From assembly GCA_964036665.1 (NCBI GenBank), contig CAXIYB010000001.1, positions 1,116,001 to 1,180,000 of the forward strand: a stretch of DNA of 64,000 nt, read 5' to 3'. The stretch's first letter is position 1. Each line of letters begins with the position of its first letter. The position numbers and the translations under genes were made by a program. Origin of the DNA: Gordius sp. MW1. Lineage: Eukaryota; Nematomorpha; Gordioida; Gordea; Gordiidae. The notes under the pieces are model-generated. The model saw nothing but the letters and a program-made list of their open reading frames with translations, made no database searches and was not told the DNA's origin. Below, piece after piece: positions 1 to 64,000 of this stretch.

Positions 1-1505
1 TATTCTATAAATTTCTGTCTAAATTTGTGGATATTCGATAAAGTTCTGTCTAAATTTGTGGATATTCTATAAATTTCTCTCTAAATTTGTGGATATTCTA
101 TAAATTTCTGTCTAAATTTGTGGATATTCGATAAATTTCTGTCTAAATTTTTTGATTATTTTTAAATTTCTCTCTAAATTTGTGGATATTCTATAAATTT
201 CTCTCTAAATTTGTGGATATTCTATAAATTTCTGTCTAAATTTGTGGATATTCGATAAAGTTCTGTCTAAATTTGTGGATATTCTATAAATTTCTCTCTA
301 AATTTGTGGATATTCTATAAATTTCTGTTTAAATTTGTGGATATTCGATAAATTTCTGTCTAAATTTTTTGATTATTTTTAAATTTCTCTCTAAATTTGT
401 GGATATTCTATAAATTTCTCTCTAAATTTGTGGATATTCTATAAATTTCTGTCTAAATTTGTGGATATTCGATAAATTTCTGTCTAAATTTGTTGATTAT
501 TTTTAAATTTTTGTCTAAATTTGTGTATTCTATAAATTTCTGTCTAAATTTTTTGATTCTTTATAAATTTCTCTCTAAATTTGTGGATATTCTATAAATT
601 TCTGTCTAAATTTGTGGATATTCGATAAATTTCTGTCTAACTTTGTGGATATTCGATAAATTTCTGTCTAAATTTTTTTGATTATTTTTAAATTTCTCTC
701 TAAATTTGTGGATATTCTATAAATTTCTCTCTAAATTTGTGGTTTTTTTTATAAATTTCTGTCTAAATTTTTTGATTATTTTTAATTTTGTCTAAATTTG
801 TGGATATTCTATAAATTTCTGTCTAAATTTTTTGATTCTTTATAAATTTCTCTCTAAATTTGACAATATTCTATAAATTTCTGTCTAAAGTTGTGGATAT
901 TCGATAAATTTCTGTCTAAATTTGTGGATATTCGATAAATTTCTGTCTAAATTTTTTGATTATTTTTAAATTTTTGTCTAAATTTGTGGAAATTCTATAA
1001 ATTTCTGTCGAAATTTGTGGATATTCGATAAAGTTCTGTCTAAATTTGTGGATATTCTATAAATTTCTCTCTAAATTTGTGGATATTCTATAAATTCTGT
1101 CTAAATTTGTGGATATTCGATAAATTTCTGTCTAAATTTTTTGATTATTTTTAAATTTTTGTCTAAATTTGTGGATATTCTATAAATTTCTTTCTAAATT
1201 GTTTGATTCTTTGTAAATTTCTGTCTAAATTTGTGGATATTCTATAAATTTCTGTCTAAATTTTTTGATTCTTTATAAATTTCTCTCTAAATTTGTGGAT
1301 ATTCTATAAATTTCTGTCTAAATTTTTTGATTTTATAAATTTCTCTCTAAATTTGTGGATATTCTATAAATTTCTGTCTAAATATTTTGATTCTTTAGAA
1401 ATTTCTCTCTAAATTTGTGGATATTCTATAAATTTCTGTCTAAATTTGTGGATATTAGATAAATTTCTGTCTAAATTTTTAATATTTCTCTGTTTATCTA
1501 TAAAT
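1..1505 (+). repeat. 31-bp satellite array, type B (left-truncated by window)
   Basis: This is a tandem array of 31-bp monomers, for example 1-31, 32-62 and 63-93. The commonest monomer carries TATTCTATAAATTT, then CTGTCTAAATTT, then GTGGA. Variants include TATTCGATAAAG or TATTCGATAAATTT, CTCTC for CTGTC, and a second monomer class in which the GTGGATATTC part is replaced by TTTGATTATTTTT or TTTGATTCTTTA while the length stays 31. Position n here aligns with position n+5601 in the array at 5169-7106 and both end at the poly-C tract, so this is the 3' part of a type-B array with its first 433 bp outside the window. There are about 48 monomers by length. No coding potential is seen. Confidence 0.95.
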
Positions 1506-1780
1506 CCCCCCCCCCTCACTACGCTACTGGGTAAAACATACGTTCAATTTCACATAATTTTTAATTTTATGACAACGCATTTATTCATTGTTTTTTTAGT
1601 TTCCTCCAATGAATCTTAGAATTTACAATACATCATAATTTTGGCCATATTTTTCAATCAAAGATTTAGTACTTACAACCATGGTTTCAGATATACATCG
1701 GCAAATTTCAACAAAAAATATGTAATTCTCTTTATAATCAAAAATTATTAACTTAAAAAAAATCTAAATTAAAACAAATA

Positions 1781-1799
1781 ATAGATGGCGGTATAAAAG
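1781..1799 (+). promoter_or_regulatory. Candidate core promoter: AGATGGCGG next to TATAAAAG
   Basis: AGATGGCGG lies directly upstream of TATAAAAG, a good match to a eukaryotic TATA box. AGATGGCGG resembles the YY1/Pho core (CCGCCAT on the other strand) and partly resembles the insect CTCF core. Predicted transcription runs through the tetranucleotide tract and GC modules into the next 31-bp array. The motif is intact in every complete block in both arms. No transcription evidence is available, so function is inferred from motif and conservation only. In a recently homogenised array, conservation is weak evidence of selection. Confidence 0.3.
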
Positions 1800-2088
1800 A
1801 TTGAACTTAAGACTTCATATAGCTTCGAAATATGATGAAGACGAATAATAAAAGTAAAATTATGTGTAAAATGTAAAAATAATGATTTATTTATTTGTGT
1901 ATACCACATTTAAAGATCCATAAAATAAATTTGGCACAATCATTCTTAGCCACCATGAATTAGATATGCAAAATATCCTTATATATAGCTATCTTCTACA
2001 TATATATGTATGTATACAATGTATTTATGTATGTTGCAATGTATTTATGTATGCAATGTATGTATGTATGTACTAAGGTATGTATGTA

Positions 2089-2265
2089 CGTATGTAATGT
2101 ATTTATGTATGTATGCAATGTATTTATGTATGTATGCAATGTGTTTATGTATGTATGTATGCATGTTGGGCGCGGGCCCAAATTTTTATTCACGGCCATG
2201 TAATGTATTTATGTATGTATGCAATGTGTTTATGTATGCATGTTGGGCGCGGGCCCAAATTTTTA
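2089..2265 (+). repeat. Tandem 77-bp GC-hairpin module, two copies (representative)
   Basis: Two tandem modules each run from a TGTA-rich stretch into TTGGGC-GCGG-GCCCAA, a perfect 6-bp stem with a 4-base loop, followed by AAATTTTTATTCACGGCC. The stems are at 2166-2181 and 2243-2258, exactly 77 bp apart. With the following CGCCCACTCACG repeats this is the main CpG-bearing segment of an otherwise AT-rich unit. Most blocks carry two modules. The right-arm blocks at 30522 and 61598 carry one. Confidence 0.85.
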
Positions 2266-2360
2266 TTCACGGCCCGCCCACTCACGGTGGTATTAAAAAA
2301 AAATTCACGCCCACTCACGCTTCTTCTTCTTCTTTATCGTGTTGAAAATCCCACAGACGG

Positions 2361-4333
2361 TTGATATTCGATAAATTTCTGTCTAAATTTTTTGATTATT
2401 TTTAAATTTTTGTCTAAATTTGTTGATATTCGATAAATTTCTGTCTAAATTTTTTGATTATTTTTAAATTTTTGTCTAAATTGGTGGATATTCTATAAAT
2501 TTCTGTCTAAATTTTTTGATTATTTTTATATTTTTGTGTAAATTTGTGGATATTCTATAAATTTCTGTCTAAATTTTTTGATTATTTTTAATTTTTGTCT
2601 AAATTTGTGTATATTCTATAAATTTCTGTCTAAATTTTTTGATTCTTTATTTCTCTCTAAATTTGAAAATATTCTATAAATTTCTGTCAAAATTTGTGGA
2701 TATTCCATAAATTTCTGTCTGAATTTTTTGATTATTTTTAAATTTTTGTCTAAATTTGTGGATAATCTATAAATTTCTCTCTAAATTTGTGGATATTCTA
2801 TAAATTTCTGTCTAAATTTGTGGATATTCGATAAAGTTCTGTCTAAATTTGTGGATATTCTATAAATTTCTCTCTAAATTTGTGGATATTCTATAAATTT
2901 CTGTCTAAATTTGTGGATATTCGATAAATTTCTGTCTAAATTTTTTGATTATTTTTAAATTTCTCTCTAAATTTGTGGATATTCTATAAATTTCTCTCTA
3001 AATTTGTGGATATTCTATAAATTTCTGTCTAAATTTGTGGATATTCGATAAATTTCTGTCTAAATATGTTGATTATTTTTAAATTTTTGTCTAAATTTGT
3101 GGATATTCTATAAATTTCTGTCTAAATTTTTTGATTCTTTATAAATTTCTCTCTAAATTTGTGGATATTCTATAAATTTCTGTCTAAATTTGTGGATATT
3201 CGATAAATTTCTGTCTAACTTTGTGGATATTCGATAAATTTCTGTCTAAATTTTTTTGATTATTTTTAAATTTCTCTCTAAATTTGTGGATATTCTATAA
3301 ATTTCTCTCTAAATTTGTGGTTTTTTTATAAATTTCTGTCTAAATTTTTTGATTATTTTTAATTTTGTCTAAATTTGTGGATATTCTATAAATTTCTGTC
3401 TAAATTTTTTGATTCTTTATAAATTTCTCTCTAAATTTGACAATATTCTATAAATTTCTGTCTAAATTTGTGGATATTCGATAAATTTCTGTCTAAATTT
3501 TTTGATTATTTTTAAATTTTTGTCTAAATTTGTGGATATTCTATAAATTTCTGTCTAAATTTTTTGATTCTTTATAAATTTCTCTCTAAATTTGTGGATA
3601 TTCTATAAATTTCTGTCTAAATTTGTGGATATTCGATAAATTTCTGTCTAACTTTGTGGATATTCGATAAATTCCTGTCTAAATTTTTTTGATTATTTTT
3701 AAATTTCTCTCTAAATTTGTGGATATTCTATAAATTTCTCTCTAAATTTGTGTTTTTTTTATAAATTTCTGTATAAATTTTTTGATTATTTTTAATTTTT
3801 GTCTAAATTTGTGGATATTCTATAAATTTCTGTCTAAATTTTTTGATTCTTTATAAAATTTCTCTCTAAATTTGACAATATTCTATAAATTTCTGTCTAA
3901 ATTTGTGGATATTCGATAAATTTCTGTCTAAATTTGTGGATATTCGATAAATTTCTGTCTAAATTTTTTGATTATTTTTAAATTTTTGTCTAAATTTGTG
4001 GATATTCTATAAATTTCTGTCGAAATTTGTGGATATTCGATAAAGTTCTGTCTAAATTTGTGGATATTCTATAAATTTCTCTCTAAATTTGTGGATATTC
4101 TATAAAGTCTGTCTAAATTTGTGGATATTCGATAAATTTCTGTCTAAATTTTTTGATTATTTTTAAATTTTTGTCTAAATTTGTGGATATTCTATAAATT
4201 TCTGTCTAAATATTTTGATTCTTTAGAAATTTCTCTCTAAATTTGTGGATATTCTATAAATTTCTGTCTAAATTTGTGGATATTAGATAAATTTCTGTCT
4301 AAATTTTTAATATTTCTCTGTTTATCTATAAAT
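2361..4333 (+). repeat. 31-bp satellite array A1 (type A, 1973 bp)
   Basis: Type A is recognised by TTGATATTCG twice near its start, an ATTGGTGGATATTC monomer, GTCAAAATTTG, AAATTCCTGTC, and a short monomer TATAAAGTCTGTC near its 3' end. It has the same length as the array at 13483-15455. It contains two GACAATATTC monomers about 435 bp (14 monomers) apart, which suggests an internal duplication relative to type B. Confidence 0.93.
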
Positions 4334-5168
4334 CCCCCCCCCCCTCACTACGCTACTGGGTAAAACATACGTTCAATTTCACATAATTTTTAATTTTATG
4401 ACAACGCATTTATTCATTGTTTTTTTAGTTTCCTCCAATGAATCTTAGAATTTACAATACATCAGAATTTTGGCCATATTTTTCAATCAAAGATTTAGTA
4501 CTTACAACCATGGTTTCAGATATACATCGGCAAATTTCAACAAAAAATATGTAATTCTCTTTATAATCAAAAATTATTAACTTAAAAAAAATCTAAATTA
4601 AAACAAATAATAGATGGCGGTATAAAAGATTGAACTTAAGACTTCATATAGCTTCGAAATATGATGAAGACGAATAATAAAAGTAAAATTATGTGTAAAA
4701 TGTAAAAATAATGATTTATTTATTTGTGTATACCACATTTAAAGATCCATAAAATAAATTTGGCACAATCATTCTTAGCCACCATGAATTAGATATGCAA
4801 AATATCCTTATATATAGCTATCTTCTACATATATATGTATGTATACAATGTATTTATGTATGTTGCAATGTATTTATGTATGCAATGTATGTATGTATGT
4901 ACTAAGGTATGTATGTACGTATGTAATGTATTTATGTATGTATGCAATGTGTTTATGTATGTATGTATGCATGTTGGGCGCGGGCCCAAATTTTTATTCA
5001 CGGCCATGTAATGTATTTATGTATGTATGCAATGTGTTTATGTATGCATGTTGGGCGCGGGCCCAAATTTTTATTCACGGCCCGCCCACTCACGGTGGTA
5101 TTAAAAAAAAATTCACGCCCACTCACGCTTCTTCTTCTTCTTTATCGTGTTGAAAATCCCACAGACGG
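4334..5168 (+). repeat. Linker block L2
   Basis: It has 11 C in the poly-C tract, a TATA-like box at 4621-4628, and two GC-hairpin modules. It carries ACATCAGAATTTTGG where most left blocks have ACATCATAATTTTGG. The CAG variant occurs in L2, L6 and L9, the blocks that follow arrays ending in type-A sequence, so array end and block appear to be inherited together. Confidence 0.93.
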
Positions 5169-7106
5169 TTGATATTCGATAAATTTCTGTCTAAATTTTT
5201 TGATTATTTTTAAATTTTTGTCTAAATTTGTTGATATTCTATAAATTTCTGTCTAAATTTTTTGATTATTTTTATATTTTTGTGTAAATTTGTGGATATT
5301 CTATAAATTTCTGTCTAAATTTTTTGATTATTTTTAATTTTTGTCTAAATTTGTGTATATTCTATAAATTTCTGTCTAAATTTTTTGATTCTTTATTTCT
5401 CTCTAAATTTGAAAATATTCTATAAATTTCTGTCTAAATTTGTGGATATTCCATAAATTTCTGTCTGAATTTGTGGATATTCTATAAATTTCTGTCTAAA
5501 TTTGTGGATATTCGATAAATTTCTGTCTAAATTTGTAAATATTCCATAAATTTCTGTCTAAATTTGTGGATATTCTATAAATTTCTGTCTAAATTTGTGG
5601 ATATTCTATAAATTTCTGTCTAAATTTGTGGATATTCGATAAAGTTCTGTCTAAATTTGTGGATATTCTATAAATTTCTCTCTAAATTTGTGGATATTCT
5701 ATAAATTTCTGTCTAAATTTGTGGATATTCGATAAATTTCTGTCTAAATTTTTTGATTATTTTTAAATTTCTCTCTAAATTTGTGGATATTCTATAAATT
5801 TCTCTCTAAATTTGTGGATATTCTATAAATTTCTGTCTAAATTTGTGGATATTCGATAAAGTTCTGTCTAAATTTGTGGATATTCTATAAATTTCTCTCT
5901 AAATTTGTGGATATTCTATAAATTTCTGTTTAAATTTGTGGATATTCGATAAATTTCTGTCTAAATTTTTTGATTATTTTTAAATTTCTCTCTAAATTTG
6001 TGGATATTCTATAAATTTCTCTCTAAATTTGTGGATATTCTATAAATTTCTGTCTAAATTTGTGGATATTCGATAAATTTCTGTCTAAATTTGTTGATTA
6101 TTTTTAAATTTTTGTCTAAATTTGTGTATTCTATAAATTTCTGTCTAAATTTTTTGATTCTTTATAAATTTCTCTCTAAATTTGTGGATATTCTATAAAT
6201 TTCTGTCTAAATTTGTGGATATTCGATAAATTTCTGTCTAACTTTGTGGATATTCGATAAATTTCTGTCTAAATTTTTTTGATTATTTTTAAATTTCTCT
6301 CTAAATTTGTGGATATTCTATAAATTTCTCTCTAAATTTGTGGTTTTTTTTATAAATTTCTGTCTAAATTTTTTGATTATTTTTAATTTTGTCTAAATTT
6401 GTGGATATTCTATAAATTTCTGTCTAAATTTTTTGATTCTTTATAAATTTCTCTCTAAATTTGACAATATTCTATAAATTTCTGTCTAAATTTGTGGATA
6501 TTCGATAAATTTCTGTCTAAATTTGTGGATATTCGATAAATTTCTGTCTAAATTTTTTGATTATTTTTAAATTTTTGTCTAAATTTGTGGAAATTCTATA
6601 AATTTCTGTCGAAATTTGTGGATATTCGATAAAGTTCTGTCTAAATTTGTGGATATTCTATAAATTTCTCTCTAAATTTGTGGATATTCTATAAATTCTG
6701 TCTAAATTTGTGGATATTCGATAAATTTCTGTCTAAATTTTTTGATTATTTTTAAATTTTTGTCTAAATTTGTGGATATTCTATAAATTTCTTTCTAAAT
6801 TGTTTGATTCTTTGTAAATTTCTGTCTAAATTTGTGGATATTCTATAAATTTCTGTCTAAATTTTTTGATTCTTTATAAATTTCTCTCTAAATTTGTGGA
6901 TATTCTATAAATTTCTGTCTAAATTTTTTGATTTTATAAATTTCTCTCTAAATTTGTGGATATTCTATAAATTTCTGTCTAAATATTTTGATTCTTTAGA
7001 AATTTCTCTCTAAATTTGTGGATATTCTATAAATTTCTGTCTAAATTTGTGGATATTAGATAAATTTCTGTCTAAATTTTTAATATTTCTCTGTTTATCT
7101 ATAAAT
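5169..7106 (+). repeat. 31-bp satellite array B1 (type B, 1938 bp)
   Basis: Type-B landmarks are TTTTTATATTTTTGTG near the start, a short monomer GTGTATTCTATAAATTT, a GGAAATTCTATAAATTT then CTGTCGAAATTTG pair, and CTTTCTAAATTGTTTG near the end. The length is identical in B1, B2, B3 and B4. Confidence 0.94.
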
Positions 7107-7940
7107 CCCCCCCCCCTCACTACGCTACTGGGTAAAACATACGTTCAATTTCACATAATTTTTAATTTTATGACAACGCATTTATTCATTGTTTTTTTAG
7201 TTTCCTCCAATGAATCTTAGAATTTACAATACATCATAATTTTGGCCATATTTTTCAATCAAAGATTTAGTACTTACAACCATGGTTTCAGATATACATC
7301 GGCAAATTTCAACAAAAAATATGTAATTCTCTTTATAATCAAAAATTATTAACTTAAAAAAAATCTAAATTAAAACAAATAATAGATGGCGGTATAAAAG
7401 ATTGAACTTAAGACTTCATATAGCTTCGAAATATGATGAAGACGAATAATAAAAGTAAAATTATGTGTAAAATGTAAAAATAATGATTTATTTATTTGTG
7501 TATACCACATTTAAAGATCCATAAAATAAATTTGGCACAATCATTCTTAGCCACCATGAATTAGATATGCAAAATATCCTTATATATAGCTATCTTCTAC
7601 ATATATATGTATGTATACAATGTATTTATGTATGTTGCAATGTATTTATGTATGCAATGTATGTATGTATGTACTAAGGTATGTATGTACGTATGTAATG
7701 TATTTATGTATGTATGCAATGTGTTTATGTATGTATGTATGCATGTTGGGCGCGGGCCCAAATTTTTATTCACGGCCATGTAATGTATTTATGTATGTAT
7801 GCAATGTGTTTATGTATGCATGTTGGGCGCGGGCCCAAATTTTTATTCACGGCCCGCCCACTCACGGTGGTATTAAAAAAAAATTCACGCCCACTCACGC
7901 TTCTTCTTCTTCTTTATCGTGTTGAAAATCCCACAGACGG
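7107..7940 (+). repeat. Linker block L3
   Basis: This block matches the left-arm consensus length (824 bp plus the C tract) with 10 C. The TATA-like box is at 7393-7400. It carries the CAT variant (ACATCATAATTTTGG) and two GC-hairpin modules. Confidence 0.93.
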
Positions 7941-24418: not shown

Positions 24419-24966
24419 TTGATATTCGATAAATTTCTGTCTAAATTTTTTGATTATTTTTAAATTTTTGTCTAAATTGGTGGATATTCTATAAATTTCT
24501 GTCTAAATTTTTTGATTATTTTTATATTTTTGTGTAAATTTGTGGATATTCTATAAATTTCTGTCTAAATTTTTTGATTATTTTTAATTTTTGTCTAAAT
24601 TTGTGTATATTCTATAAATTTCTGTCTAAATTTTTTGATTCTTTATTTCTCTCTAAATTTGAAAATATTCTATAAATTTCTGTCTAAATTTGTGGATATT
24701 CCATAAATTTCTGTCTGAATTTTTTGATTATTTTTAAATTTTTGTCTAAATTTGTGGATATTCTATAAATTTCTGTCTAAATTTGTGGATATTCTATAAA
24801 TTTCTGTCTAAATTTGTGGATATTCGATAAAGTTCTGTCTAAATTTTTTGATTATTTTTAAATTTTTGTCTAAATTTGTGGATATTCTATAAATTTCTCT
24901 CTAAAGTTGTGGATATTCTATAAATTTCTGTCTAAATTTGTGGATATTCGATAAATTTCTGTCTAA
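24419..24966 (+). repeat. Truncated 31-bp satellite array D at left-arm edge
   Basis: About 18 monomers begin like type A with one dimer missing (a single TTGATATTCG, then ATTGGTGGATATTC). The array stops inside a monomer at CTGTCTAAA, where unrelated sequence starts. Private changes include CTAAAGTTGTGG near 24903. Confidence 0.9.
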
Positions 24967-25250
24967 AAAATATTTTTGTGAATTTTTGCGGTCACAGTGG
25001 TGACAAATGTCATAATCAACAATTTCTATTGAGATTAATATTTTTTTTTAAAATAGACTTATTATATGAATGAAAGATGTTCTACTATTATAAAAAATAT
25101 TTTTGGGAAGATTTGCGGTCACAGTGATGACAAATGTCTTAATCAACATTTTCTATTGAAATTTTTTTTTTTTGAAAATTGCCTTATTATATGACAAAGA
25201 TTTTCTAATATTCGAAAATATATTTTTGAAGATTTGCGGTCAAAAATTGT
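24967..25250 (+). repeat. 122-127-bp tandem repeat, about 2.3 copies
   Basis: The word GCGGTCACAGTG(G/A)TGAC recurs at the same relative place, with GGTCA starting at 24990 and 25117 and a decayed GGTCAAAAATTG at 25239, giving spacings of 127 and 122 bp. Flanking TATTTTTG, ACAAATGTC, AATCAACA and TTTCTATTGA align between copies. GTCAC-AGTG-GTGAC in copy 1 is a small inverted repeat. It is unrelated to the 31-bp satellite and abuts its end. Confidence 0.75.
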
Positions 25251-25251
25251 C

Positions 25252-25533
25252 TTAATATACCATATCAATTAAAATAAATTTTTTTAATTTAACTTCATTT
25301 ACGAAATAAGCTGTATTATTAAATATAATATTAATATGAAATTTTACCAGTTTAAAAAAATTTGCCATCATGGGTAAGTAAGTTTTACTATTTAAGTTAT
25401 TTGGGCATTTAATGGAAAAACTTGGTATTTCCAAAAAGCATATCATGCTATTAATTACTATGCTTTCACAAGGCACCAACACTCTACGTCCTATTGACTT
25501 AGACTTCTCGTTTACAATGCTTATAAGGATCAT
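25252..25533 (-). CDS. Unrecognised open frame, 93 codons, doubtful
   Basis: The minus-strand frame from ATG at 25533 encodes a 93-residue peptide, with internal residues such as SIGRRVLVPCESIVINSMIC and IKCPNNLNSKTYLPMMANFF. It is not low complexity, unlike every other frame in the window, and the composition (Ile, Asn, Lys, Phe) follows the AT-rich base content. The open frame extends 11 codons upstream of the ATG, and a TTTTTGTTACTCAG acceptor-like tract overlaps that extension, so this could be an exon or a decayed transposon gene piece. I recognise no domain. It may equally be a chance frame in AT-rich DNA. Confidence 0.2.
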   Translation of the reverse strand: MILISIVNEKSKSIGRRVLVPCESIVINSMICFLEIPSFSIKCPNNLNSKTYLPMMANFFKLVKFHINIIFNNTAYFVNEVKLKKFILIDMVY

Positions 25534-26252
25534 AAAAAATATCGAACTTTTCTGAGTAACAAAAATGAGTTAAGCATCTTAATTTAAATTATTGCTTATT
25601 ATTTAATAAGAAACTTAATTTTCTAATTGATTATGACTTAATTAGTAGTTGACATAATAAAAAAAGTTTAATTTTCATTTATTTTATTTATAATAATATG
25701 ATTTGCAACTTCTACATACCTTGATATGTTGTACGTTAAAAAAGAAATGAATGTAAAATGATGTAATAAAGAGCCTAGCCGCCCACGCCACACCATGCCT
25801 TGTTGTGCCATGATTTTTTTATATATTTAGTTTAGTACTTAACTTAAATCTGATAGGTTTAAATCTGGTTTTGCGCATGCATTGCAACGAGAGAAGGAAG
25901 AGAGAGGGTGGATTAGTACATGAACATGTACATGCTACATGGAAGTGGTGATATGTCGAGTCGCGCGGGATGCCGTTCTCTGATATTGAAAATAGAGTTT
26001 AAATATAAAATAAAAGGGACATTATATAATTAATAAGTCTTTATCTTTTACAAGAGGCGAGGAATTCAAAATATATTTGAAATTAAATTTTGCGATTAAA
26101 ATTGCTATTGCCGGGAATATTTAGAGGGGGATCTCTTAGCTGTCATTATTTTAGAATGAATTAAAATATTAATTTTTAATTGAAGGATTGAATTCAAAAT
26201 CTGCTCTCGAATGGCCAGATAAATCTCACTTTATAATCGTTTTATATTTATT
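25534..26252. other. Spacer sequence with no recognised gene
   Basis: AT-rich sequence without tandem repeats or a convincing frame. The part around 25780-25975 is less AT-rich, with CGCCCACGCCACACC, a GA-rich run (GAGAGAAGGAAGAGAGAGGG) and TCGAGTCGCGCGGG. GTACATG-AA-CATGTAC at 25916-25931 is a perfect inverted repeat. Nothing here identifies a product. Confidence 0.6.
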
Positions 26253-27662
26253 GAAAACACCCCCTATGCCCCCCCTCTCCCCCGCATTAGAAAGAGGGTA
26301 AATAATTGGGGGGGGGGCGGAAAAACACCCCCCATGCCCCCCCCTCTCCCCCACATTAGAAAGAGGGTAAAAAATAAGGGGGGGGGCAAAACACCCCCCA
26401 TGCCCCCCTCTCCCCCTGATCAAAAAGAGGGTAAAAAATCAGGGGGGGGGGGGGCAAAACACCCCCTATGCCCCCCCCCTCTCCCCCACATCAGAAAGAG
26501 GGTAAAAAATAAGGGGGGGGGGGGCAAAACACCCCCCATGCCCCCCCCTCTCCCCCTCAGAAAGAGGGTAAAAAATTAGAGGGGGGGGGGGGGGTAAAAC
26601 ACCCCCTATGCCCCCCCCCTCTCCCCCACATCAGAAAGAGGGTAAAAAATAAGGGGGGAGGGGGGCAAAACACCCCCTATGCCCCCCCTCTCCTCCACAT
26701 GTAAAAATTAAAGGGGGGGGGCAAAACACCCCCCATGACCCCCCTCTCAAGAGGGTAAAAAATAAGAGGGGGGGGGCAAAACACCCCCTATGCCCCCCCT
26801 CTCCTCTGGATCAGAAACAGGGTAAAAAATTAAGGGGGGGGGGGCAAAACACCCCCCATGCCCCCCTCTCCCCCGCATTAGAAAGAGGGTAAAAAATTAG
26901 GGGGGGGGGGCAAAACACCCCTCATGCCCCCCTCTCCCCCGCATTAGAAAGAAGATAAAAAATTAGGGGGGGGGGGGCAAAACACCCCCTGCCCCCCCCC
27001 CCTCTCCCTCGCATCAGAAAGAAAGTGGGGGGGGGGGCAAAACACCCCCCATGCCCCCCCCTCTCCCCCTGATCAGAAAGAGGGTAAAAAATTAGGGGGG
27101 GGGGGGGGTAAAACACCCCCTGTGCCCCCCCCCCTCTCAGCCACATCAGAAAGAGGGTAAAAAATAAGGGGGGAGGGGGGCAAAACACCTCCTATGCCCC
27201 CCCTCTCCCCCACATCAGAAAGAGGGTAAAAAATAAGGGGGGAGGGGGGCAAAACACCCCCTATGCCCCCCCCTCTCCCACATCAGAAAGAGGGTAAAAA
27301 ATATAGGGGGGGGCAAAACACCCCCCATGCCCCCCCCTCTCCCCCTGATCAGAAAGAGGGTAAAAAATTAGGGGGGGGGGGGTAAAACACCCCCTATGCC
27401 CCCCCCCCTCTCCCCCACATCAGAAAGAGGGTACAAAATAAGGGGGGAGGGGGGCAAAACACCCCCTGCCCCCCCCTCTCCCTCGCATCAGAAAGAGGGT
27501 AAAAATTTAGTGGGGGGGGGGGCAAAACACCCCCCTGCCCCCCCCGCTTCTCTCCCGGATCAGAAAGAAGGTAAAAAATAAGGGGGGGGGGCAAACACCC
27601 CACCTGCCCGCCGTTCATCCCCAGGTGAGAAAGAGGGTAAAAAATAAAGGGGGGGGGGCAAA
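26253..27662. repeat. C-run/G-run minisatellite, about 21 copies, average 66 bp
   Basis: The unit reads AAAACACCCCC(C/T)ATG, a long C run, CTCTCCCCCACATCAG, AAAGAGGGTAAAAAAT, and a run of about 7-14 G before the next AAAACAC. I count about 21 occurrences of the AAAACAC start. Copies vary mainly in homopolymer length, with scattered changes (ACATCAG, GCATTAG, GATCAG) and shortened copies near 26695-26760 and 27000-27030. CCCTCT and AGAGGG within a unit can pair, as can the flanking C and G runs, so each unit is a potential hairpin. Frames across it encode only Pro/Gly-rich repeats on either strand and are artefacts. Confidence 0.92.
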
Positions 27663-28136
27663 TCTTCACAAATTTTTTTTTCATAAATAAAACATATTGA
27701 TTCACTACCTACTTCTATAATGCATAATAATTAACTATAATTTACTGAATTTACTAGATTGTGACGTCATGATACATTTATTTTTATTTTCCTAAATTAA
27801 AAGTTCATTACCTAAATCTAAATACACAAATATGATGAACAATATAAACAAATTGATATATTTGCATGCCCAACCCAAAACGACCAAAACCAAACCAAAA
27901 GGTTAATAATATTATCCACCCAAACCCTTTAGCTCTTTAATACACTCAAACCTAAACGCCAAAGGTGCCCCCAAAAAAAACACCCAAAACGCTTTGGGGG
28001 TTTTTTACGAAAACGCCAAACGCCAAAGCCCTCCCAAGAAAATTCACCTAACACTGAAAAGGTTGGGTGAAAAAAAACGCCAACAACTAAGCTTAGCAAT
28101 ACGCTGGGAAAAACCAGCCAGCCGTTTTTACAACAC
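27663..28136. other. Spacer sequence, AT-rich then A/C-skewed, no gene
   Basis: 27663-27867 is plain AT-rich sequence with one perfect TGACGTCA at 27762-27769. From about 27868 the plus strand becomes rich in A and C and poor in G, with AACGCC at four places (about 27955, 28012, 28019 and 28076) and runs such as AACCCAAAACGACC. A CTAAGCTTAG palindrome lies at 28087-28096. Homology to the satellite begins at TAGTACAT (28137). I recognise no element or product. Confidence 0.6.
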
Positions 28137-28704
28137 TAGTACATACATACATACATTGCATACATAAATACATTGCAACATACATAAATACATTGTATAC
28201 ATACATATAAATGTAGAAGATAGCTATATATAAGGATATTTTGCATATCTAATTCATGGTGGCTAAGAATGATTGGGCCAAATTTATTTTATGGATCTTT
28301 AAATGTGGTATACACAAATAAATAAATCATTATTTTTACATTTTACACATAATTTTACTTTTATTATTCGTCTTCATCATATTTCGAAGCTATATGAAGT
28401 CTTAAGTTCAATCTTTTATACCGCCATCTATTATTTGTTTTAATTTAGATTTTTTTTAAGTTAATAATTTTTGATTATAAAGAGAATTACATATTTTTTG
28501 TTGAAATTTGCCGATGTATATCTGAAACCATGGTTGTAAGTACTAAATCTTTGATTGAAAAATATGGCCAAAATTATGATGTATTGTAAATTCTAAGATT
28601 CATTGGAGGAAACTAAAAAAACAATGAATAAATGCGTTGTCATAAAATTAAAAATTATGTGAAGTTGAACGTATGTTTTACCCAGTAGCGTAGTGAGGGG
28701 GGGG
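28137..28704 (-). repeat. Linker block R0 (truncated, first right-arm unit)
   Basis: The inverted arm starts inside the tetranucleotide tract of a linker block. The GC modules, the 12-mer repeats and the CCGTCTGTGGG border are absent. The remainder is intact through the G tract (8 G, 28697-28704). Private or shared variants are CATATAAATG (also in R7 and R10), GATTGGGCC for GATTGTGCC, and GTGAAGTTGAACG (also in R10). Confidence 0.93.
28413..28429 (-). promoter_or_regulatory. Candidate core promoter facing the spacer from the right
   Basis: CTTTTATA followed by CCGCCATCT is the reverse complement of the left-arm motif. It would direct transcription leftward through the block remnant into the spacer, opposed to the last left-arm copy at 23875-23882. 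There is no evidence of activity beyond the motif. Confidence 0.28.
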
Positions 28705-30521
28705 ATTTATAGATAAACAGAGAAATATTAAAAATTTAGACAGAAATTTATCTAATATCCACAAATTTAGACAGAAATTTATAGAATATCCACAAATTTA
28801 GAGAGAAATTTCTAAAGAATCAAAATATTTAGACAGAAATTTATAGAATATCCACAAATTTAGACAAAAATTTAAAAATAATCAAAAAATTTAGACAGAA
28901 ATTTATCGAATATCCACAAATTTAGACAGAAATTTATAGAATATCCACAAATTTAGAGAGAAATTTATAAAATCAAAAAATTTAGACAGAAATTTATAGA
29001 ATATCCACAAATTTAGAGAGAAATTTATAAAGAATCAAAAAATTTAGACAGAAATTTATAGAATATCCACAAATTTAGACAGAAATTTACAAAGAATCAA
29101 ACAATTTAGACAGAAATTTATAGAATATCCACAAATTTAGACAAAAATTTAAAAATAATCAAAAAATTTAGACAGAAATTTATCGAATATCCACAAATTT
29201 AGACAGAATTTATAGAATATCCACAAATTTAGAGAGAAATTTATAGAATATCCACAAATTTAGACAGAACTTTATCGAATATCCACAAATTTCGACAGAA
29301 ATTTATAGAATTTCCACAAATTTAGACAAAAATTTAAAAATAATCAAAAAATTTAGACAGAAATTTATCGAATATCCACAAATTTAGACAGAAAAATATC
29401 GAATATCCACAAATTTAGACAGAAATTTATAGAATATTGTCAAATTTAGAGAGAAATTTATAAAGAATCAAAAAATTTATACAGAAATTTATAGAATATC
29501 CACAAATTTAGACAAAAATTAAAAATAATCAAAAAATTTAGACAGAAATTTATAAAAAAACCACAAATTTAGAGAGAAATTTATAGAATATCCACAAATT
29601 TAGAGAGAAATTTAAAAATAATCAAAAAATAGACAGAAATTTATCGAATATCCACAAAGTTAGACAGAAATTTATCGAATATCCACAAATATAGACAGAA
29701 ATTTATAGAATATCCACAAATTTAGAGAGAAATTTATAAAGAATCAAAAAATTTAGACAGAAATTTATAGAATATCCACAAATTTAGAGAGAAATTTATA
29801 AAGAATCAAAAAATTTAGACAGAAATTTATAGAATATCCACAAATTTAGACAGAAATTTATAAAGAATCAAAAAGTTTAGACAGAAATTTATAGAATATC
29901 CACAAATTTAGACAAAAATTTAAAAATAATCAAAAAATTTAGACAGAAATTTATCTAATATCCACAAATTTAGACAGAAATTTATAGAATATCCACAAAT
30001 TTAGAGAGAAATTTATAGAATATCCACAAATTTAGACAGAACTTTATCGAATTTCCACAAATTTAGACAGAAATTTATCGAATATCCACAAATTTAGACA
30101 GAAATTTATAGAATATCCACAAATTTAGAGAGAAATTTAAAAAGAATCAAAAAATTTAGACAGAAATTATAGAATATCCACAAATTTAGACAAAAATTTA
30201 AAAATAATCAAAAAATTTAGACAGAAATTTATCGAATATCCACAAATTTAGACAGAAATTTATAGAAAATCCACAAATTTAGACAAAAATTTAAAAATAA
30301 TCAAAAAATTTAGACAGAAATTTATAGAATATCCACAAATTTACACAAAAATATAAAAATAATCAAAAAATTTAGACAGAAATTTATAGAATATCCACCA
30401 ATTTAGACAAAAATTTAAAAATAATCAAAAAATTTAGACAGAAATTTATCGAATATCAACAAATTTAGACAAAAATTTAAAAATAATCAAAAAATTTAGA
30501 CAGAAATTTATCGAATATCAA
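28705..30521 (-). repeat. 31-bp satellite array after R0 (type Z, 1817 bp)
   Basis: Reverse-complement monomers with ATTTAGACAG and AATATCCACA as the visible words. It shares private marks with the array at 59792-61597: AATCAAAAAATAGACAG near 29622, CCACAAATATAGACAG near 29685, and AACTTTATCGAATTTCC near 30045. One monomer has AGACAGAAAAATATCG near 29390. Confidence 0.92.
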
Positions 30522-31277
30522 CCGTCTGTGGGATTTTCAACACGATAAAGAAGAAGAAGAAGCGTGAGTGGGCGTGAATTTTTTTTAATACCACCGTGAG
30601 TGGGCGGGCCGTGAATAAAAATTTGGGCCCCCGCCCAACATGCATACATACATACATAAACACATTGCATACATACATAAATACATTACATACGTACATA
30701 CATACCTTAGTACATACATACATACATTGCATACATAAATACATTGCAACATACATAAATACATTGTATACATACATATATATGTAGAAGATAGCTATAT
30801 ATAAGGATATTTTGCATATCTAATTCATGGTGGCTAAGAATGATTGTGCCAAATTTATTTTATGGATCTTTAAATGTGGTATACACAAATAAATAAATCA
30901 TTATTTTTACATTTTACACATAATTTTACTTTTATTATTCGTCTTCATCATATTTCGAAGCTATATGAAGTCTTAAGTTCAATCTTTTATACCGCCATCT
31001 ATTATTTGTTTTAATTTAGATTTTTTTTAAGTTAATAATTTTTGATTATAAAGAGAATTACATATTTTTTGTTGAAATTTGCCGATGTATATCTGAAACC
31101 ATGGTTGTAAGTACTAAATCTTTGATTGAAAATATGGCCAAAATTATGATGTATTGTAAATTCTAAGATTCATTGGAGGAAACTAAAAAAACAATGAATA
31201 AATGCGTTGTCATAAAATTAAAAATTATGTGAAATTGAACGTATGTTTTACCCAGTAGCGTAGTGAGGGGGGGGGGG
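30522..31277 (-). repeat. Linker block R1 (single GC-hairpin module)
   Basis: It is 756 bp, about 77 bp shorter than its neighbours because one GC module is missing. The remaining hairpin has GGGCCCCCGCCC in place of GGGCCCGCGCCC. There are 11 G at the end (31267-31277), the TATA-like box is at 30984-30991 (minus strand), and GATTGAAAATATGG has one A fewer than most copies. The hairpin change and the A deletion recur in R3. Confidence 0.93.
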
Positions 31278-53652: not shown

Positions 53653-54467
53653 CCGTCTGTGGGATTTTCAACACGATAAAGAAGAAGAAGAAGCGTGAGT
53701 GGGCGTGAATTTTTTTTTAATACCACCGTGAGTGGGCGGGCCGTGAATAAAAATTTGGGCCCGCGCCCAACATGCATACATAAACACATTGCATACATAC
53801 ATAAATACATTACATTGCCGTGAATAAAAATTTGGGCCCGCGCCCAACATGCATACATACATACATAAACACATTGCATACATACATAAATACATTACAT
53901 ACGTACATACATACCTTAGTACATACATACATACATTGCAACATACATAAATACATTGTATACATACATATATATGTAGAAGATAGCTATATATAAGGAT
54001 ATTTTGCATATCTAATTCATGGTGGCTAAGAATGATTGTGCCAAATTTATTTTATGGATCTTTAAATGTGGTATACACAAATAAATAAATCATTATTTTT
54101 ACATTTTACACATAATTTTACTTTTATTATTCGTCTTCATCATATTTCGAAGCTATATGAAGTCTTAAGTTCAATCTTTTATACCGCCATCTATTATTTG
54201 TTTTAATTTAGATTTTTTTTAAGTTAATAATTTTTGATTATAAAGAGAATTACATATTTTTTGTTGAAATTTGCCGATGTATATCTGAAACCATGGTTGT
54301 AAGTACTAAATCTTTGATTGAAAAATATGGCCAAAATTATGATGTATTGTAAATTCTAAGATTCATTGGAGGAAACTAAAAAAACAATGAATAAATGCGT
54401 TGTCATAAAATTAAAAATTATGTGAAATTGAACGTATGTTTTACCCAGTAGCGTAGTGAGGGGGGGG
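53653..54467 (-). repeat. Linker block R8
   Basis: 815 bp with the R5-type 17-bp deletion. A private change, TACATTGCCGTG for TACATGGCCGTG, occurs near 53815. There are 8 G, and the TATA-like box is at 54176-54183. Confidence 0.93.
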
Positions 54468-57049: not shown

Positions 57050-57881
57050 CCGTCTGTGGGATTTTCAACACGATAAAGAAGAAGAAGAAGCGTGAGTGGG
57101 CGTGAATTTTTTTTTAATACCACCGTGAGTGGGCGGGCCGTGAATAAAAATTTGGGCCCGCGCCCAACATGCATACATAAACACATTGCATACATACATA
57201 AATACATTACATGGCCGTGAATAAAAATTTGGGCCCGCGCCCAACATGCATACATACATACATAAACACATTGCATACATACATAAATACATTACATACG
57301 TACATACATACCTTAGTACATACATACATACATTGCATACATAAATACATTGCAACATACATAAATACATTGTATACATACATATATATGTAGAAGATAG
57401 CTATATATAAGGATATTTTGCATATCTAATTCATGGTGGCTAAGAATGATTGTGCCAAATTTATTTTATGGATCTTTAAATGTGGTATACACAAATAAAT
57501 AAATCATTATTTTTACATTTTACACATAATTTTACTTTTATTATTCGTCTTCATCATATTTCGAAGCTATATGAAGTCTTAGGTTCAATCTTTTATACCG
57601 CCATCTATTATTTGTTTTAATTTAGATTTTTTTAAGTTAATAATTTTTGATTATAAAGAGAATTACATATTTTTTGTTGAAATTTGCCGATGTATATCTG
57701 AAACCATGGTTGTAAGTACTAAATCTTTGATTGAAAAATATGGCCAAAATTATGATGTATTGTAAATTCTAAGATTCATTGGAGGAAACTAAAAAAACAA
57801 TGAATAAATGCGTTGTCATAAAATTAAAAATTATGTGAAATTGAACGTATGTTTTACCCAGTAGCGTAGTGAGGGGGGGGG
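57050..57881 (-). repeat. Linker block R9
   Basis: It carries the R6 marks GTCTTAGGTTCAATC and GATTTTTTTAAG, exactly 9464 bp from R6. There are 9 G, and the TATA-like box is at 57590-57597. Confidence 0.93.
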
Positions 57882-58959
57882 ATTTATAGATAAACAGAGA
57901 AATATTAAAAATTTAGACAGAAATTTATCTAATATCCACAAATTTAGACAGAAATTTATAGAATATCCACAAATTTAGAGAGAAATTTCTAAAGAATCAA
58001 AATATTTAGACAGAAATTTATAGAATATCCACAAATTTAGACAAAAATTTAAAAATAATCAAAAAATTTAGACAGAAATTTATCGAATATCCACAAAGCT
58101 AGACAGAAATTTATCGAATATCCACAAATTTAGACAGAAATTTATAGAATATCCACAAATTTAGAGAGAAATTTATAAAGAATCAAAAAATTTAGACAGA
58201 AATTTATAGAATATCCACAAATTTAGAGAGAAATTTATAAAGAATCAAAAAATTTAGACAGAAATTTATAGAATATCCACAAATTTTGACAGAAATTTAT
58301 AAAGAATCAAAAAGTTTAGACAGAAATTTATAGAATATCCACAAATTTAGACAAAAATTTAAAAATAATCAAAAAATTTAGACAGAAATTTATCTAATAT
58401 CCACAAATTTAGACAGAAATTTATAGAATATCCACAAATTTAGAGAGAAATTTATAGAATATCCACAAATTTAGACAGAACTTTATCGAATATCCACAAA
58501 TTTAGACAGAAATTTATCGAATATCCACAAATTTAGACAGAAATTTATAGAATATCCACAAATTTAGAGAGAAATTTAAAAAGAATCAAAAAATTTAGAC
58601 AGAAATTATAGAATATCCACAAATTTAGACAAAAATTTAAAAATAATCAAAAAATTTAGACAGAAATTTATCGAATATCCACAAATTTAGACAGAAATTT
58701 ATAGAAAATCCACAAATTTAGACAAAAAATTAAAATAATCAAAAAATTTAGACAGAAATTTGTAGAATATCCACAAATTTACACAAAAATATAAAAATAA
58801 TCAAAAAATTTAGACAGAAATTTATAGAATATCCACCAATTTAGACAAAAATTTATAAATAATCAAAAAATTTAGACAGAAATTTATCGAATATCAACAA
58901 ATTTAGACAAAAATTTAAAAATAATCAAAAAATTTAGACAGAAATTTATCGAATATCAA
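57882..58959 (-). repeat. 31-bp satellite array Z2 (deleted copy of Z1, 1078 bp)
   Basis: It matches Z1 on both flanks, but the first-array segment and the CCACAAAGCTAGACAG monomer (near 58095) are joined directly. The loss is about 741 bp, close to 24 monomers, with the monomer register kept. GACAAAAAATTAAAATAATC near 58722 is a small private change. Confidence 0.92.
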
Positions 58960-59791
58960 CCGTCTGTGGGATTTTCAACACGATAAAGAAGAAGAAGAAG
59001 CGTGAGTGGGCGTGAATTTTTTTTTAATACCACCGTGAGTGGGCGGGCCGTGAATAAAAATTTGGGCCCGCGCCCAACATGCATACATAAACACATTGCA
59101 TACATACATAAATACATTACATGGCCGTGAATAAAAATTTGGGCCCGCGCCCAACATGCATACATACATACATAAACACATTGCATACATACATAAATAC
59201 ATTACATACGTACATACATACCTTAGTACATACATACATACATTGCATACATAAATACATTGCAACATACATAAATACATTGTATACATACATATAAATG
59301 TAGAAGATAGCTATATATAAGGATATTTTGCATATCTAATTCATGGTGGCTAAGAATGATTGTGCCAAATTTATTTTATGGATCTTTAAATGTGGTATAC
59401 ACAAATAAATAAATCATTATTTTTACATTTTACACATAATTTTACTTTTATTATTCGTCTTCATCATATTTCGAAGCTATATGAAGTCTTAAGTTCAATC
59501 TTTTATACCGCCATCTATTATTTGTTTTAATTTAGATTTTTTTTAAGTTAATAATTTTTGATTATAAAGAGAATTACATATTTTTTGTTGAAATTTGCCG
59601 ATGTATATCTGAAACCATGGTTGTAAGTACTAAATCTTTGATTGAAAAATATGGCCAAAATTATGATGTATTGTAAATTCTAAGATTCATTGGAGGAAAC
59701 TAAAAAAACAATGAATAAATGCGTTGTCATAAAATTAAAAATTATGTGAAGTTGAACGTATGTTTTACCCAGTAGCGTAGTGAGGGGGGGG
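58960..59791 (-). repeat. Linker block R10
   Basis: It carries CATATAAATGTAG (as R0 and R7) and GTGAAGTTGAACG (as R0). There are two GC modules, 8 G, and a TATA-like box at 59500-59507. Confidence 0.93.
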
Positions 59792-61597
59792 ATTTATAGA
59801 TAAACAGAGAAATATTAAAAATTTAGACAGAAATTTATCTAATATCCACAAATTTAGACAGAAATTTATAGAATATCCACAAATTTAGAGAGAAATTTCT
59901 AAAGAATCAAAATATTTAGACAGAAATTTATAGAATATCCACAAATTTAGACAAAAATTTAAAAATAATCAAAAAATTTAGACAGAAATTTATCGAATAT
60001 CCACAAATTTAGACAGAAATTTATAGAATATCCACAAATTTAGAGAGAAATTTATAAAATCAAAAAATTTAGACAGAAATTTATAGAATATCCACAAATT
60101 TAGAGAGAAATTTATAAAGAATCAAAAAATTTAGACAGAAATTTATAGAATATCCACAAATTTAGACAGAAATTTACAAATAATCAAACAATTTAGACAG
60201 AAATTTATAGAATATCCACAAATTTAAACAAAAATTTAAAAATAATCAAAAAATTTAGACAGAAATTTATCGAATATCCACAAATTTAGACAGAATTTAT
60301 AGAATATCCACAAATTTAGAGAGAAATTTATAGAATATCCACAAATTTAGACAGAACTTTATCGAATATCCACAAATTTCGACAGAAATTTATAGAATTT
60401 CCACAAATTTAGACAAAAATTTAAAAATAATCAAAAAATTTAGACAGAAATTTATCGAATATCCACAAATTTAGACAGAAATTTATCGAATATCCACAAA
60501 TTTAGACAGAAATTTATAGAATATTGTCAAATTTAGAGAGAAATTTATAAAGAATCAAAAAATTTAGACAGAAATTTATAGAATATCCACAAATTTAGAC
60601 AAAAATTAAAAATAATCAAAAAATTTAGACAGAAATTTATAAAAAAAACCACAAATTTAGAGAGAAATTTATAGAATATCCACAAATTTAGAGAGAAATT
60701 TAAAAATAATCAAAAAATAGACAGAAATTTATCGAATATCCACAAAGTTATACAGAAATTTATCGAATATCCACAAATATAGACAGAAATTTATAGAATA
60801 TCCACAAATTTAGAGAGAAATTTATAAAGAATCAAAAAATTTAGACAGAAATTTATAGAATATCCACAAATTTAGAGAGAAATTTATAAAGAATCAAAAA
60901 ATTTAGACAGAAATTTATAGAATATCCACAAATTTAGACAGAAATTTATAAAGAATCAAAAAGTTTAGACAGAAATTTATAGAATATCCACAAATTTAGA
61001 CAAAAATTTAAAAATAATCAAAAAATTTAGACAGAAATTTATCTAATATCCACAAATTTAGACAGAAATTTATAGAATATCCACAAATTTAGAGAGAAAT
61101 TTATAGAATATCCACAAATTTAGACAGAACTTTATCGAATTTCCACAAATTTATCGAATATCCACAAATTTAGACAGAAATTTATAGAATATCCACAAAT
61201 TTAGAGAGAAATTTAAAAAGAATCAAAAAATTTAGACAGAAGTTATAGAATATCCACAAATTTAGACAAAAATTTAAAAATAATCAAAAAATTTAGACAG
61301 AAATTTATCGAATATCCACAAATTTAGACAGAAATTTATAGAAAATCCACAAATTTAGACAAAAATTTAAAAATAATCAAAAAATTTAGACAGAAATTTA
61401 TAGAATATCCACAAATTTACACAAAAATATAAAAATAATCAAAAAATTTAGACAGAAATTTATAGAATATCCACCAATTTAGACAAAAATTTAAAAATAA
61501 TCAAAAAATTTAGACAGAAATTTATCGAATATCAACAAATTTAGACAAAAATTTAAAAATAATCAAAAAATTTAGACAGAAATTTATCGAATATCAA
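59792..61597 (-). repeat. 31-bp satellite array after R10 (type Z, 1806 bp)
   Basis: It is closest to the array after R0, sharing AAAAAATAGACAG near 60712, CCACAAATATAGACAG near 60770 and AACTTTATCGAATTTCC near 61130. Private events include a monomer-internal deletion, TTTCCACAAATTTATCG near 61140, CAAAGTTATACAG, and ACAGAAGTTATAG. Confidence 0.92.
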
Positions 61598-62352
61598 CCG
61601 TCTGTGGGATTTTCAACACGATAAAGAAGAAGAAGAAGCGTGAGTGGGCGTGAATTTTTTTTAATACCACCGTGAGTGGGCGGGCCGTGAATAAAAATTT
61701 GGGCCCGCGCCCAACATGCATACATACATACATAAACACATTGCATACATACATAAATACATTACATACGTACATACATACCTTAGTACATACATACATA
61801 CATTGCATACATAAATACATTGCAACATACATAAATACATTGTATACATACATATATATGTAGAAGATAGCTATATATAAGGATATTTTGCATATCTAAT
61901 TCATGGTGGCTAAGAATGATTGTGCCAAATTTATTTTATGGATCTTTAAATGTGGTATACACAAATAAATAAATCATTATTTTTACATTTTACACATAAT
62001 TTTACTTTTATTATTCGTCTTCATCATATTTCGAAGCTATATGAAGTCTTAAGTTCAATCTTTTATACCGCCATCTATTATTTGTTTTAATTTAGATTTT
62101 TTTTAAGTTAATAATTTTTGATTATAAAGAGAATTACATATTTTTTGTTGAAATTTGCCGATGTATATCTGAAACCATGGTTGTAAGTACTAAATCTTTG
62201 ATTGAAAAATATGGCCAAAATTATGATGTATTGTAAATTCTAAGATTCATTGGAGGAAACTAAAAAAACAATGAATAAATGCGTTGTCATAAAATTAAAA
62301 ATTATGTGAAATTGAACGTATGTTTTACCCAGTAGCGTAGTGAGGGGGGGGG
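61598..62352 (-). repeat. Linker block R11 (single GC-hairpin module)
   Basis: 755 bp. Like R1 it has only one GC-hairpin module and an 8-T run before AATACCACC (9 T in the other complete right-arm blocks). Unlike R1 it keeps GGGCCCGCGCCC and GATTGAAAAATATGG. There are 9 G, and the TATA-like box is at 62060-62067. Confidence 0.93.
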
Positions 62353-63759
62353 ATTTATAGATAAACAGAGAAATATTAAAAATTTAGACAGAAATTTATC
62401 TAATATCCACAAATTTAGACAGAAATTTATAGAATATCCACAAATTTAGAGAGAAATTTCTAAAGAATCAAAATATTTAGACAGAAATTATAGAATATCC
62501 ACAAATTTAGACAAAAATTTAAAAATAATCAAAAAATTTAGACAGAAATTTATCGAATATCAACAAATTTAGACAAAAATTTAAAAATAATCAAAAAATT
62601 TAGACAGAAATTTATCGAATATCCACAAATTTAGACAGAAATTTATAGAATATCCACAAATTTAGAGAGAAATTTATAAAATCAAAAAATTTAGACAGAA
62701 ATTTATAGAATATCCACAAATTTAGAGAGAAATTTATAAAGAATCAAAAAATTTAGACAGAAATTTATAGAATATCCACAAATTTAGACAGAAATTTACA
62801 AAGAATCAAAAAATTTAGACAGAAATTTATAGAATATCCACAAATTTAGACAAAAATTTAAAAATAATCAAAAAATTTAGACAGAAATTTATCGAATATC
62901 CACAAATTTAGACAGAATTTATAGAATATCCACAAATTTAGAGAGAAATTTATAGAATATCCACAAATTTAGACAGAACTTTATCGAATATCCACAAATT
63001 TCGACAGAAATTTATAGAATATCCACAAATTTAGACAAAAATTTAAAAATAATCAAAAAATTTAGACAGAAATTTATCGAATATCCACAAATTTAGACAG
63101 AAATTTATCGAATATCCACAAATTTAGACAGAAATTTATAGAATATTGTCAAATTTAGAGAGAAATTTATAAAGAATCAAAAAATTTAGACAGAAATTTA
63201 TAGAATATCCACAAATTTAGACAAAATTAAAAATAATCAAAAAATTTAGACAGAAATTTATAGAATATCCACAAATTTAGAGAGAAATTTATAAAGAATC
63301 AAAATATTTAGACAGAAATTTATAGAATATCCACAAATTTAGACAAAAATTTAAAAATAATCAAAAAATTCACACAGAAATTTATCGAATATCCACAAAT
63401 TTAGACAGAAATTTATAGAATATCCACAACAAAAATTTAAAAATAATCAAAAAATTTAGACAGAAATTTATCTAATATCCACAAATTTAGACAGAAATTT
63501 ATAGAATACCCACAAATTTAGAGAGAAATTTAAAAAGAATCAAAAAATTTAGACAGAAATTATAGAATATCCACAAATTTAGACAAAAATTTAAAAATAA
63601 TCAAAAAATTTAGACAGAAATTTATCGAATATCAACAAATTTAGACAAAAATTTAAAAATAATCAAAAAATTTAGACAGAAATTTATCGAATATCAACAA
63701 ATTTAGACAAAAATTTAAAAATAATCAAAAAATTTAGACAGAAATTTATCAAATATCAA
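62353..63759 (-). repeat. 31-bp satellite array after R11 (type X-like, 1407 bp, rearranged)
   Basis: It starts as type X (ACAGAAATTATAG, TATCAACAAATTTAG dimer) and stays collinear for roughly 0.9 kb, then jumps. CCACAACAAAAATTTAA near 63424 is a partial-monomer deletion. The end holds TATCAACAAATTTAGAC twice ahead of the border (near 63630 and 63692), where X and Y arrays have it once. Confidence 0.9.
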
Positions 63760-64000
63760 CCGTCTGTGGGATTTTCAACACGATAAAGAAGAAGAAGAAG
63801 CGTGAGTGGGCGTGAATTTTTTTTTAATACCACCGTGAGTGGGCGGGCCGTGAATAAAAATTTGGGCCCGCGCCCAACATGCATACATAAACACATTGCA
63901 TACATACATAAATACATTACATGGCCGTGAATAAAAATTTGGGCCCGCGCCCAACATGCATACATACATACATAAACACATTGCATACATACATAAATAC
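63760..64000 (-). repeat. Linker block R12 (cut by window end)
   Basis: It starts at CCGTCTGTGGG and contains the GAA run, both CGTGAGTGGGCG 12-mers and two GC-hairpin modules before the window ends inside the tetranucleotide tract. The preceding array ends TTTATCAAATATCAAC, where others have TTTATCGAATATCAAC. Confidence 0.93.

Follow-up and report, generated by a model that had tools for sequence, protein, structure and literature searches.

The window, that is the whole stretch of 64,000 nucleotides analysed here, corresponds to C9:1116001-1180000 in an assembly of 211.8 Mb and 12 contigs, and it does not contain any N. Two satellite arms are separated by a 3.2-kb spacer, and refining the limits to the base placed the end of the left satellite at 24967, a transposon at 24968-28138, and a residual 8-bp target GTACATAC with its linker from 28139 onward. 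The features are:

1-24967, plus strand: left satellite arm of 31-bp monomers and linker blocks, in units of 2555-2829 bp
24958-24978, no strand: left junction, passing from satellite TCTGTCTAAA to transposon core AAATATTTTTG with an overlap of 0-1 bp
24968-25260, plus strand: transposon core A, with imperfect internal repeats
25261-26253, plus strand: transposon core B
26254-27662, plus strand: G-run/C-run minisatellite arm with a 66-68-bp period, inverted copies of which flank the core in 11/11 relatives
27663-28138, plus strand: terminal domain D ending in TTTTACAACACTA, of the 474 type here, the B side being of the 422 type in 11/11 relatives
28139-28146, plus strand: GTACATAC, interpreted as the one remaining copy of an 8-bp target duplication, at the second of two such linker sites
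28139-28715, plus strand: first linker of the right arm, truncated and carrying a variant pair otherwise found only at the C8 junction
28139-64000, minus strand: right (flipped) satellite arm, of a single orientation in all samples as far as the C9 telomere at ~1,352,993

Counted over the window, the monomer word AATTTGTGGATATTC occurs 290 times, always below position 25000, and its reverse complement 387 times, always above 28000, with no monomer word on the wrong side of the strand switch. The original prediction of a change from plus to minus across the spacer thus holds without exception for the words counted, and the asymmetry it described is seen at the refined boundaries, with 31-bp monomers where the left arm stops and the interior of a linker where the right one starts. 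The linkers themselves are very homogeneous: in 33 aligned sequences only 37 of 570 columns vary, many of them in a single sequence or at ragged ends and G-runs.

The arms also differ in unit length and type, as had been proposed. Exact matches to the linker core are 2771-2829 bp apart in all seven left-arm intervals, whereas five of the nine right-arm intervals measure 3397-3459 bp, two 2560-2571 bp and two are longer (5324 and 6065 bp). A looser anchor gave eight left units of 2555-2829 bp, and in the right arm, taken over the window and the adjoining locus, 8 of 14 units of 3396-3459 bp within a full range of 1910-5112 bp. When units were compared pairwise, after one right unit of 5112 bp (>4500 bp) had been dropped, the two best-scoring left-right pairs showed 1.9% substitutions with 209 gap bases and 1.3% with 338, and the best pairs inside each arm 0.03-0.07% with no gaps. 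Median substitution (1.5% left-right, 1.35% within the left and 0.5% within the right arm) as the sole measure separates the arms poorly; they are distinct because near-identical best pairs exist within each arm but not between them. Unit lengths and best-scoring pairs together rule out a palindromic fold-back of the left arm, in line with the original view that the right arm is not its simple copy. The mutual copies that a breakage-fusion-bridge cycle would leave as inverted arms are therefore not found here, which argues against a simple sister-chromatid fusion palindrome and implies that either two different arrays or positions were joined or the arms diverged later.

Occupying the spacer is a truncated member of a dispersed, apparently non-autonomous transposon family, which has hAT-like ends and long foldback arms. 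It had been called unrelated, which is correct insofar as it is unlike the satellite, yet it belongs to a dispersed repeat family. Searching the genome with positions 25200-27800 yielded 119 matches; among the best 33 of 1400 candidates scored, near-full-length matches lie on each of C1-C9, on C5 reaching at most query position 2463 and on C1, C2, C3, C4, C6, C8 and C9 spanning the full query (1-2601). Of twenty stretches fetched, 11 hold a relative in which the A-B core lies between two inverted arms; the remainder comprise one stretch with an arm and partial A pieces only (L014, not counted), the C8 junction (L009), and satellite or telomere. The order D474, inverted array, A, B, array, D422 was found in 10 of the 11 relatives, the A-side end of the eleventh (L015) being cut off by the edge of the fetched stretch. 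The ten complete relatives are 4324-5677 bp long, with termini TAGTGTTGTAAAA and TTTTACAACACTA. Their 8-bp target duplication is perfect in nine and agrees at 6/8 positions in the tenth, with T at position 2 in 8/9 and A at position 7 in 7/9.

As the YARNG consensus is characteristic of hAT termini, TAGTG ... CACTA in all ten two-ended copies, together with the 8-bp duplications, indicates hAT-like ends. Dimerisation domains of the hAT type are frequent in the genome, and none of the best 150 of 3413 candidates scored was linked to the spacer family. A foldback organisation is evident from long inverted arms with internal tandem repeats in 11/11 relatives and from a non-coding middle, as judged on the single-armed window copy, which has no ORF >103 aa anywhere in its transposon sequence. 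This copy begins at core A, has no left arm, and carries the D474 terminus on its B side; in the intact relative at C9:1055809-1060544 (L011), core A lies 29 bp inward of the left array arm that is missing here.

At the right junction, a clean transposon terminus abuts linker GTACATAC, a motif that the linkers carry twice, 16 bp apart. Between the two GTACATAC sites of the linkers (window 30694-30717 and equivalents) lies CTTA, a possible remnant of the past excision of an 8-bp-target transposon. The left junction is of a different kind. In five relatives the core is preceded by CCCTTTCA, which limits the overlap with the satellite to 0-1 bp, and no homologous repeat was found at this junction. 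The boundary thus combines an insertion into a linker with a non-homologous join.

A 36-base pattern spanning the left junction, with up to 3 mismatches allowed, occurs at two places in the genome, both exact: C9:1140956-1140991 and C8:49905-49940. The two junction copies are identical over the non-array transposon parts (1760 bp) and 99.36% identical over 3877 aligned bases when the G-run array is included. Their left flanks align with 8349 matches, 8 mismatches and 1547 gap bases, and their right flanks with 6672 matches, 4 mismatches and 25 gap bases. Long, near-identical arrays are prone to misassembly, and the junction is known here from the assembly alone; an artefact joining two unrelated satellite stretches during assembly or scaffolding would, however, have had to produce an identical, base-exact junction in two contigs with different flanks and telomere points, and the window has no N, so we regard this explanation as highly improbable.

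If the array had been turned around by a balanced exchange, the other half of the transposon should persist elsewhere. Genome-wide there are 17 exact matches to the transposon end plus target. Those inside satellite fields are C8:46750 and C9:1144126, which are the two junctions, and C9:1055801/1060532, which mark either end of one intact copy; none of the 17 is a lone second end of the window insertion. The matches listed from a search allowing one mismatch reach C4:17.7 Mb, ahead of the fields on C4, C8 and C9. The lack of a lone partner end points to loss of the remainder and against balanced exchange, and loss of the transposon's other half is supported, though not proven. The intact copy (L011 3809-8544) lies in the same satellite field, with a perfect GTATGTAC duplication and co-oriented linkers on both sides. 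It is not the window insertion: its target is the other linker GTACATAC, 16 bp away, and the pair of variants in the window's linker occurs at the two junctions and nowhere else.

These results bear directly on a balanced inversion of part of the field, with breakpoints in the transposon and in a 31-bp array and a reciprocal breakpoint later lost by terminal truncation. Orientation flips at several places on C9, C8 and C4 and the reshaping of chromosome tips evident from C8 and C9 would suit such a history, but a search of the satellite fields for exact matches gave no reciprocal transposon end at a GTAYRTAC site and the left junction has no homologous repeat, making it an unlikely account. 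An inversion by ectopic recombination would moreover leave a transposon bridging both breakpoints with swapped duplications; what we find is a non-homologous left junction and no exact reciprocal end. Of the original suggestion of an old inversion boundary, the opposite-orientation boundary within one satellite field stands and an inversion may underlie it, but "old" fits poorly with identical transposon parts and few flank mismatches between C8 and C9. Its second suggestion, a structure with its own dynamics, holds solely in that a transposon fills the spacer. The transposon, the telomeric setting and the further flips on C9, C8 and C4 go beyond that original view, which was based on the window by itself.

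The D474 terminus found on the B side might be attributed to recombination between the transposon's inverted arms, or between two copies in a U-type exchange, that flipped or fused the array, with the left arm deleted later. This swapped terminus is the strongest point in favor of such recombination, since arm exchange predicts a 474 type where 11/11 relatives have 422. Greedy pairing within 15 kb of exact-match ends on C1-C3 joined 47 of 96 474-type ends to 422-type ends, leaving 49 and 10 unpaired, respectively, and gave no 474/474 or 422/422 pair. Domain D has just one column with side-specific majorities, and these are not fixed, so the point of the swap cannot be located. An internal flip of the core, however, accounts for the swap without inverting the array, the non-homologous left junction requires an extra deletion, and the arms are not palindromic; we therefore consider arm recombination doubtful, slightly more so than a balanced inversion.

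Fields of the satellite adjoin the telomeres of C8 and C9, and another lies close to the C4 end; C1 carries a small internal array. With up to 2 mismatches, the linker-core pattern has 354 matches in the genome (172 forward, 182 reverse); the 100 matches listed fall on C1 (7) and C4 (93), and other listings add C8 and C9. C9 is 1.37 Mb long and its final 10 kb are nearly all TTAGGG repeats, C8 (37.4 Mb) opens with 8.68 kb of CCCTAA repeats, and the final 10 kb of C4 are telomere repeats. The first part of C9 carries another repeat: a GGACAACGG minisatellite was seen in the first 10 kb and in 8/9 probes between 60 and 780 kb (C9:1-780 kb; L027, L032-L040), and one 38-mer from this repeat matches the genome exactly at 3866 positions, all of those among the matches listed being on C4 from 386 kb.

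Telomere repeats touch the 31-bp satellite directly at C8:8683 and at C9 ~1,352,993, in differing monomer phases. On C9, all 40 exact matches of a 60-base right-arm marker from 1145857 to 1327061 are on the same strand, and four probes at 1215-1320 kb, like the stretch flanking the telomere, have this orientation too. On C8, 13 marker matches (13.6-45.0 kb) and the 10 linkers listed (12.5-44.0 kb) are opposite in strand to the matches beyond 50 kb. From junction to telomere, the flipped arm thus spans ~38 kb in C8 as against ~209 kb in C9. The 4317 bp beside the C8 telomere align end-to-end with C9:1177637-1181944 at 99.65% identity (6 mismatches, 9 gap positions), indicating that the tip of C8 equals the interior of the C9 flipped block and that one end or both must have lost or gained sequence and been re-capped. 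In total the marker has 89 exact matches, 28 on C8 and 61 on C9, in blocks of both orientations, so units of the right-arm type also exist outside the flipped arm. Marker doublets of 765-768 bp (3 on C8, 9 on C9) and the one-mismatch relatives of the junction linker occur in flipped blocks only, and searching the genome with the marker and with the junction linker revealed no array from which the flipped arm could derive.

Probes, linkers and marker matches revealed further orientation changes at C9:808-814 kb and C9:911-927 kb, and at two places on C4, one near 24.002 Mb and the other between 24.091 and 24.120 Mb. A lone opposite right-arm marker match at C8:348962, between probes at 340 and 360 kb, suggests an additional small flipped block. 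Two distinct orientation boundaries were read to sequence, namely the junction shared by the window and C8 and the one at C4:24.002 Mb. In the latter (C4:24001500-24003700; L072, L064), a linker meets an inverted partial linker, followed by G-/C-runs, a fragment and flipped satellite. Open pieces of the fragment include WYLDDDTLCGP, which we take to be reverse-transcriptase-like, in which case transposon debris at flips is not restricted to the foldback element.

Considering these observations together, we propose that the boundary is an end-joining scar between broken subtelomeric arrays followed by telomere healing, a reading to which we give about an even chance, the precise event not being proven. 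First, a non-autonomous hAT-like foldback transposon inserted into a satellite linker, as the clean right terminus beside its 8-bp target shows. A break would then have stripped off the G-rich arm on the left with all sequence past it, and the core laid bare in this way would have been joined with near-zero homology, as read in the junction sequence, to the 31-bp array of an oppositely oriented block; a single break-and-join event probably underlies both the arm loss and the join. The flipped distal block would next have been capped by telomere repeats placed straight on satellite, a contact present on both C8 and C9, presumably by telomerase healing. The junction would subsequently have been inherited or copied into two chromosome-end sequences, whether allelic or from separate ends, and one or both of these later became shorter or longer and were capped again, as shown by the C8 tip aligning inside the C9 flipped arm. 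A breakage-fusion type of cycle at chromosome ends is the likely route. Such a cycle would place a new telomere on the distal arm, and the direct telomere-satellite contacts, with a C8 tip that matches the C9 interior, may reflect such an addition.

Several points weigh against end-joining: the flipped arm has no identified source array, the arms are not mutual copies, the 474-type end on the B side demands an additional step, the reciprocal-end search is complete for exact matches only, and telomere capture could stand in for telomere healing. More broadly, though we hold this to be a tentative and rather improbable generalization, subtelomeric fields might grow and change through repeated breakage, end-joining in opposite orientation and re-capping, each flip being the fossil of one cycle and inserted transposons, the G-rich foldback element among them, serving as weak points.

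To our knowledge, the boundaries of satellite arrays are seldom resolved to a single base. The event looks like one of a known kind, a chromosome-end break with its rejoining scar, seen here in unusual detail; its components are individually known, and the informative part is that they occur together on two chromosome tips that end differently. With one junction in two chromosome-end sequences that have different telomere points, the order of insertion, break, join and re-capping becomes testable, and if other flips share this anatomy, they would provide a sequence-level record of how telomere-adjacent satellite is rebuilt. A literature search on such junctions and elements returned no title or abstract opening describing the same case.

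Non-autonomous hAT elements such as the Mar MITE have 8-bp duplications, inverted ends of 5-27 bp and lengths <4 kb (PMC3517528). The spacer family shares the duplications, but its arms exceed 1 kb including domain D, its total length is far greater at 4324-5677 bp, and no transposase was linked to it. Its long inverted arms with internal tandem repeats and similar-sized target duplications resemble those of two foldback elements: Galileo of the P superfamily, with a 7-8 bp duplication of consensus GTATTAC and a P-type transposase (PMC4168063), and Tetris, with 8-10 bp duplications and internal repeats that seeded satellite arrays (PMC4079207). Some duplications, e.g. GTATGTAC and GTATCTAC, are similar to Galileo's in composition, and the middle domain of the window copy, like that of Tetris, has no coding capacity. 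Unlike in either element, the arms of the spacer family consist of a G-run/C-run minisatellite with a 66-68-bp period and the termini, TAGTGTTGTAAAA, look hAT-like. Galileo is also said to have produced inversions through ectopic recombination (PMC4168063), whereas the window junction is non-homologous and not a chimera of two copies.

At mouse telocentric ends, telomere repeats are followed by repeat arrays interrupted by transposable elements or simple repeats (PMC12597820), similar to the transposon-punctuated arrays beside the telomere described here. In our case, however, the telomere lies directly on satellite at the two ends read and the arrays switch orientation, a change that the available text on the mouse arrays does not describe (PMC12597820). 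Terminal deletions are stabilized by new telomeres when telomere repeats are put on the broken end (PMC4427916, PMC10055226). The ends of C8 and C9 would likewise have received telomere repeats at a break, with the difference that the substrate is satellite lying beyond an inverted junction and that healing is the probable source of the cap.
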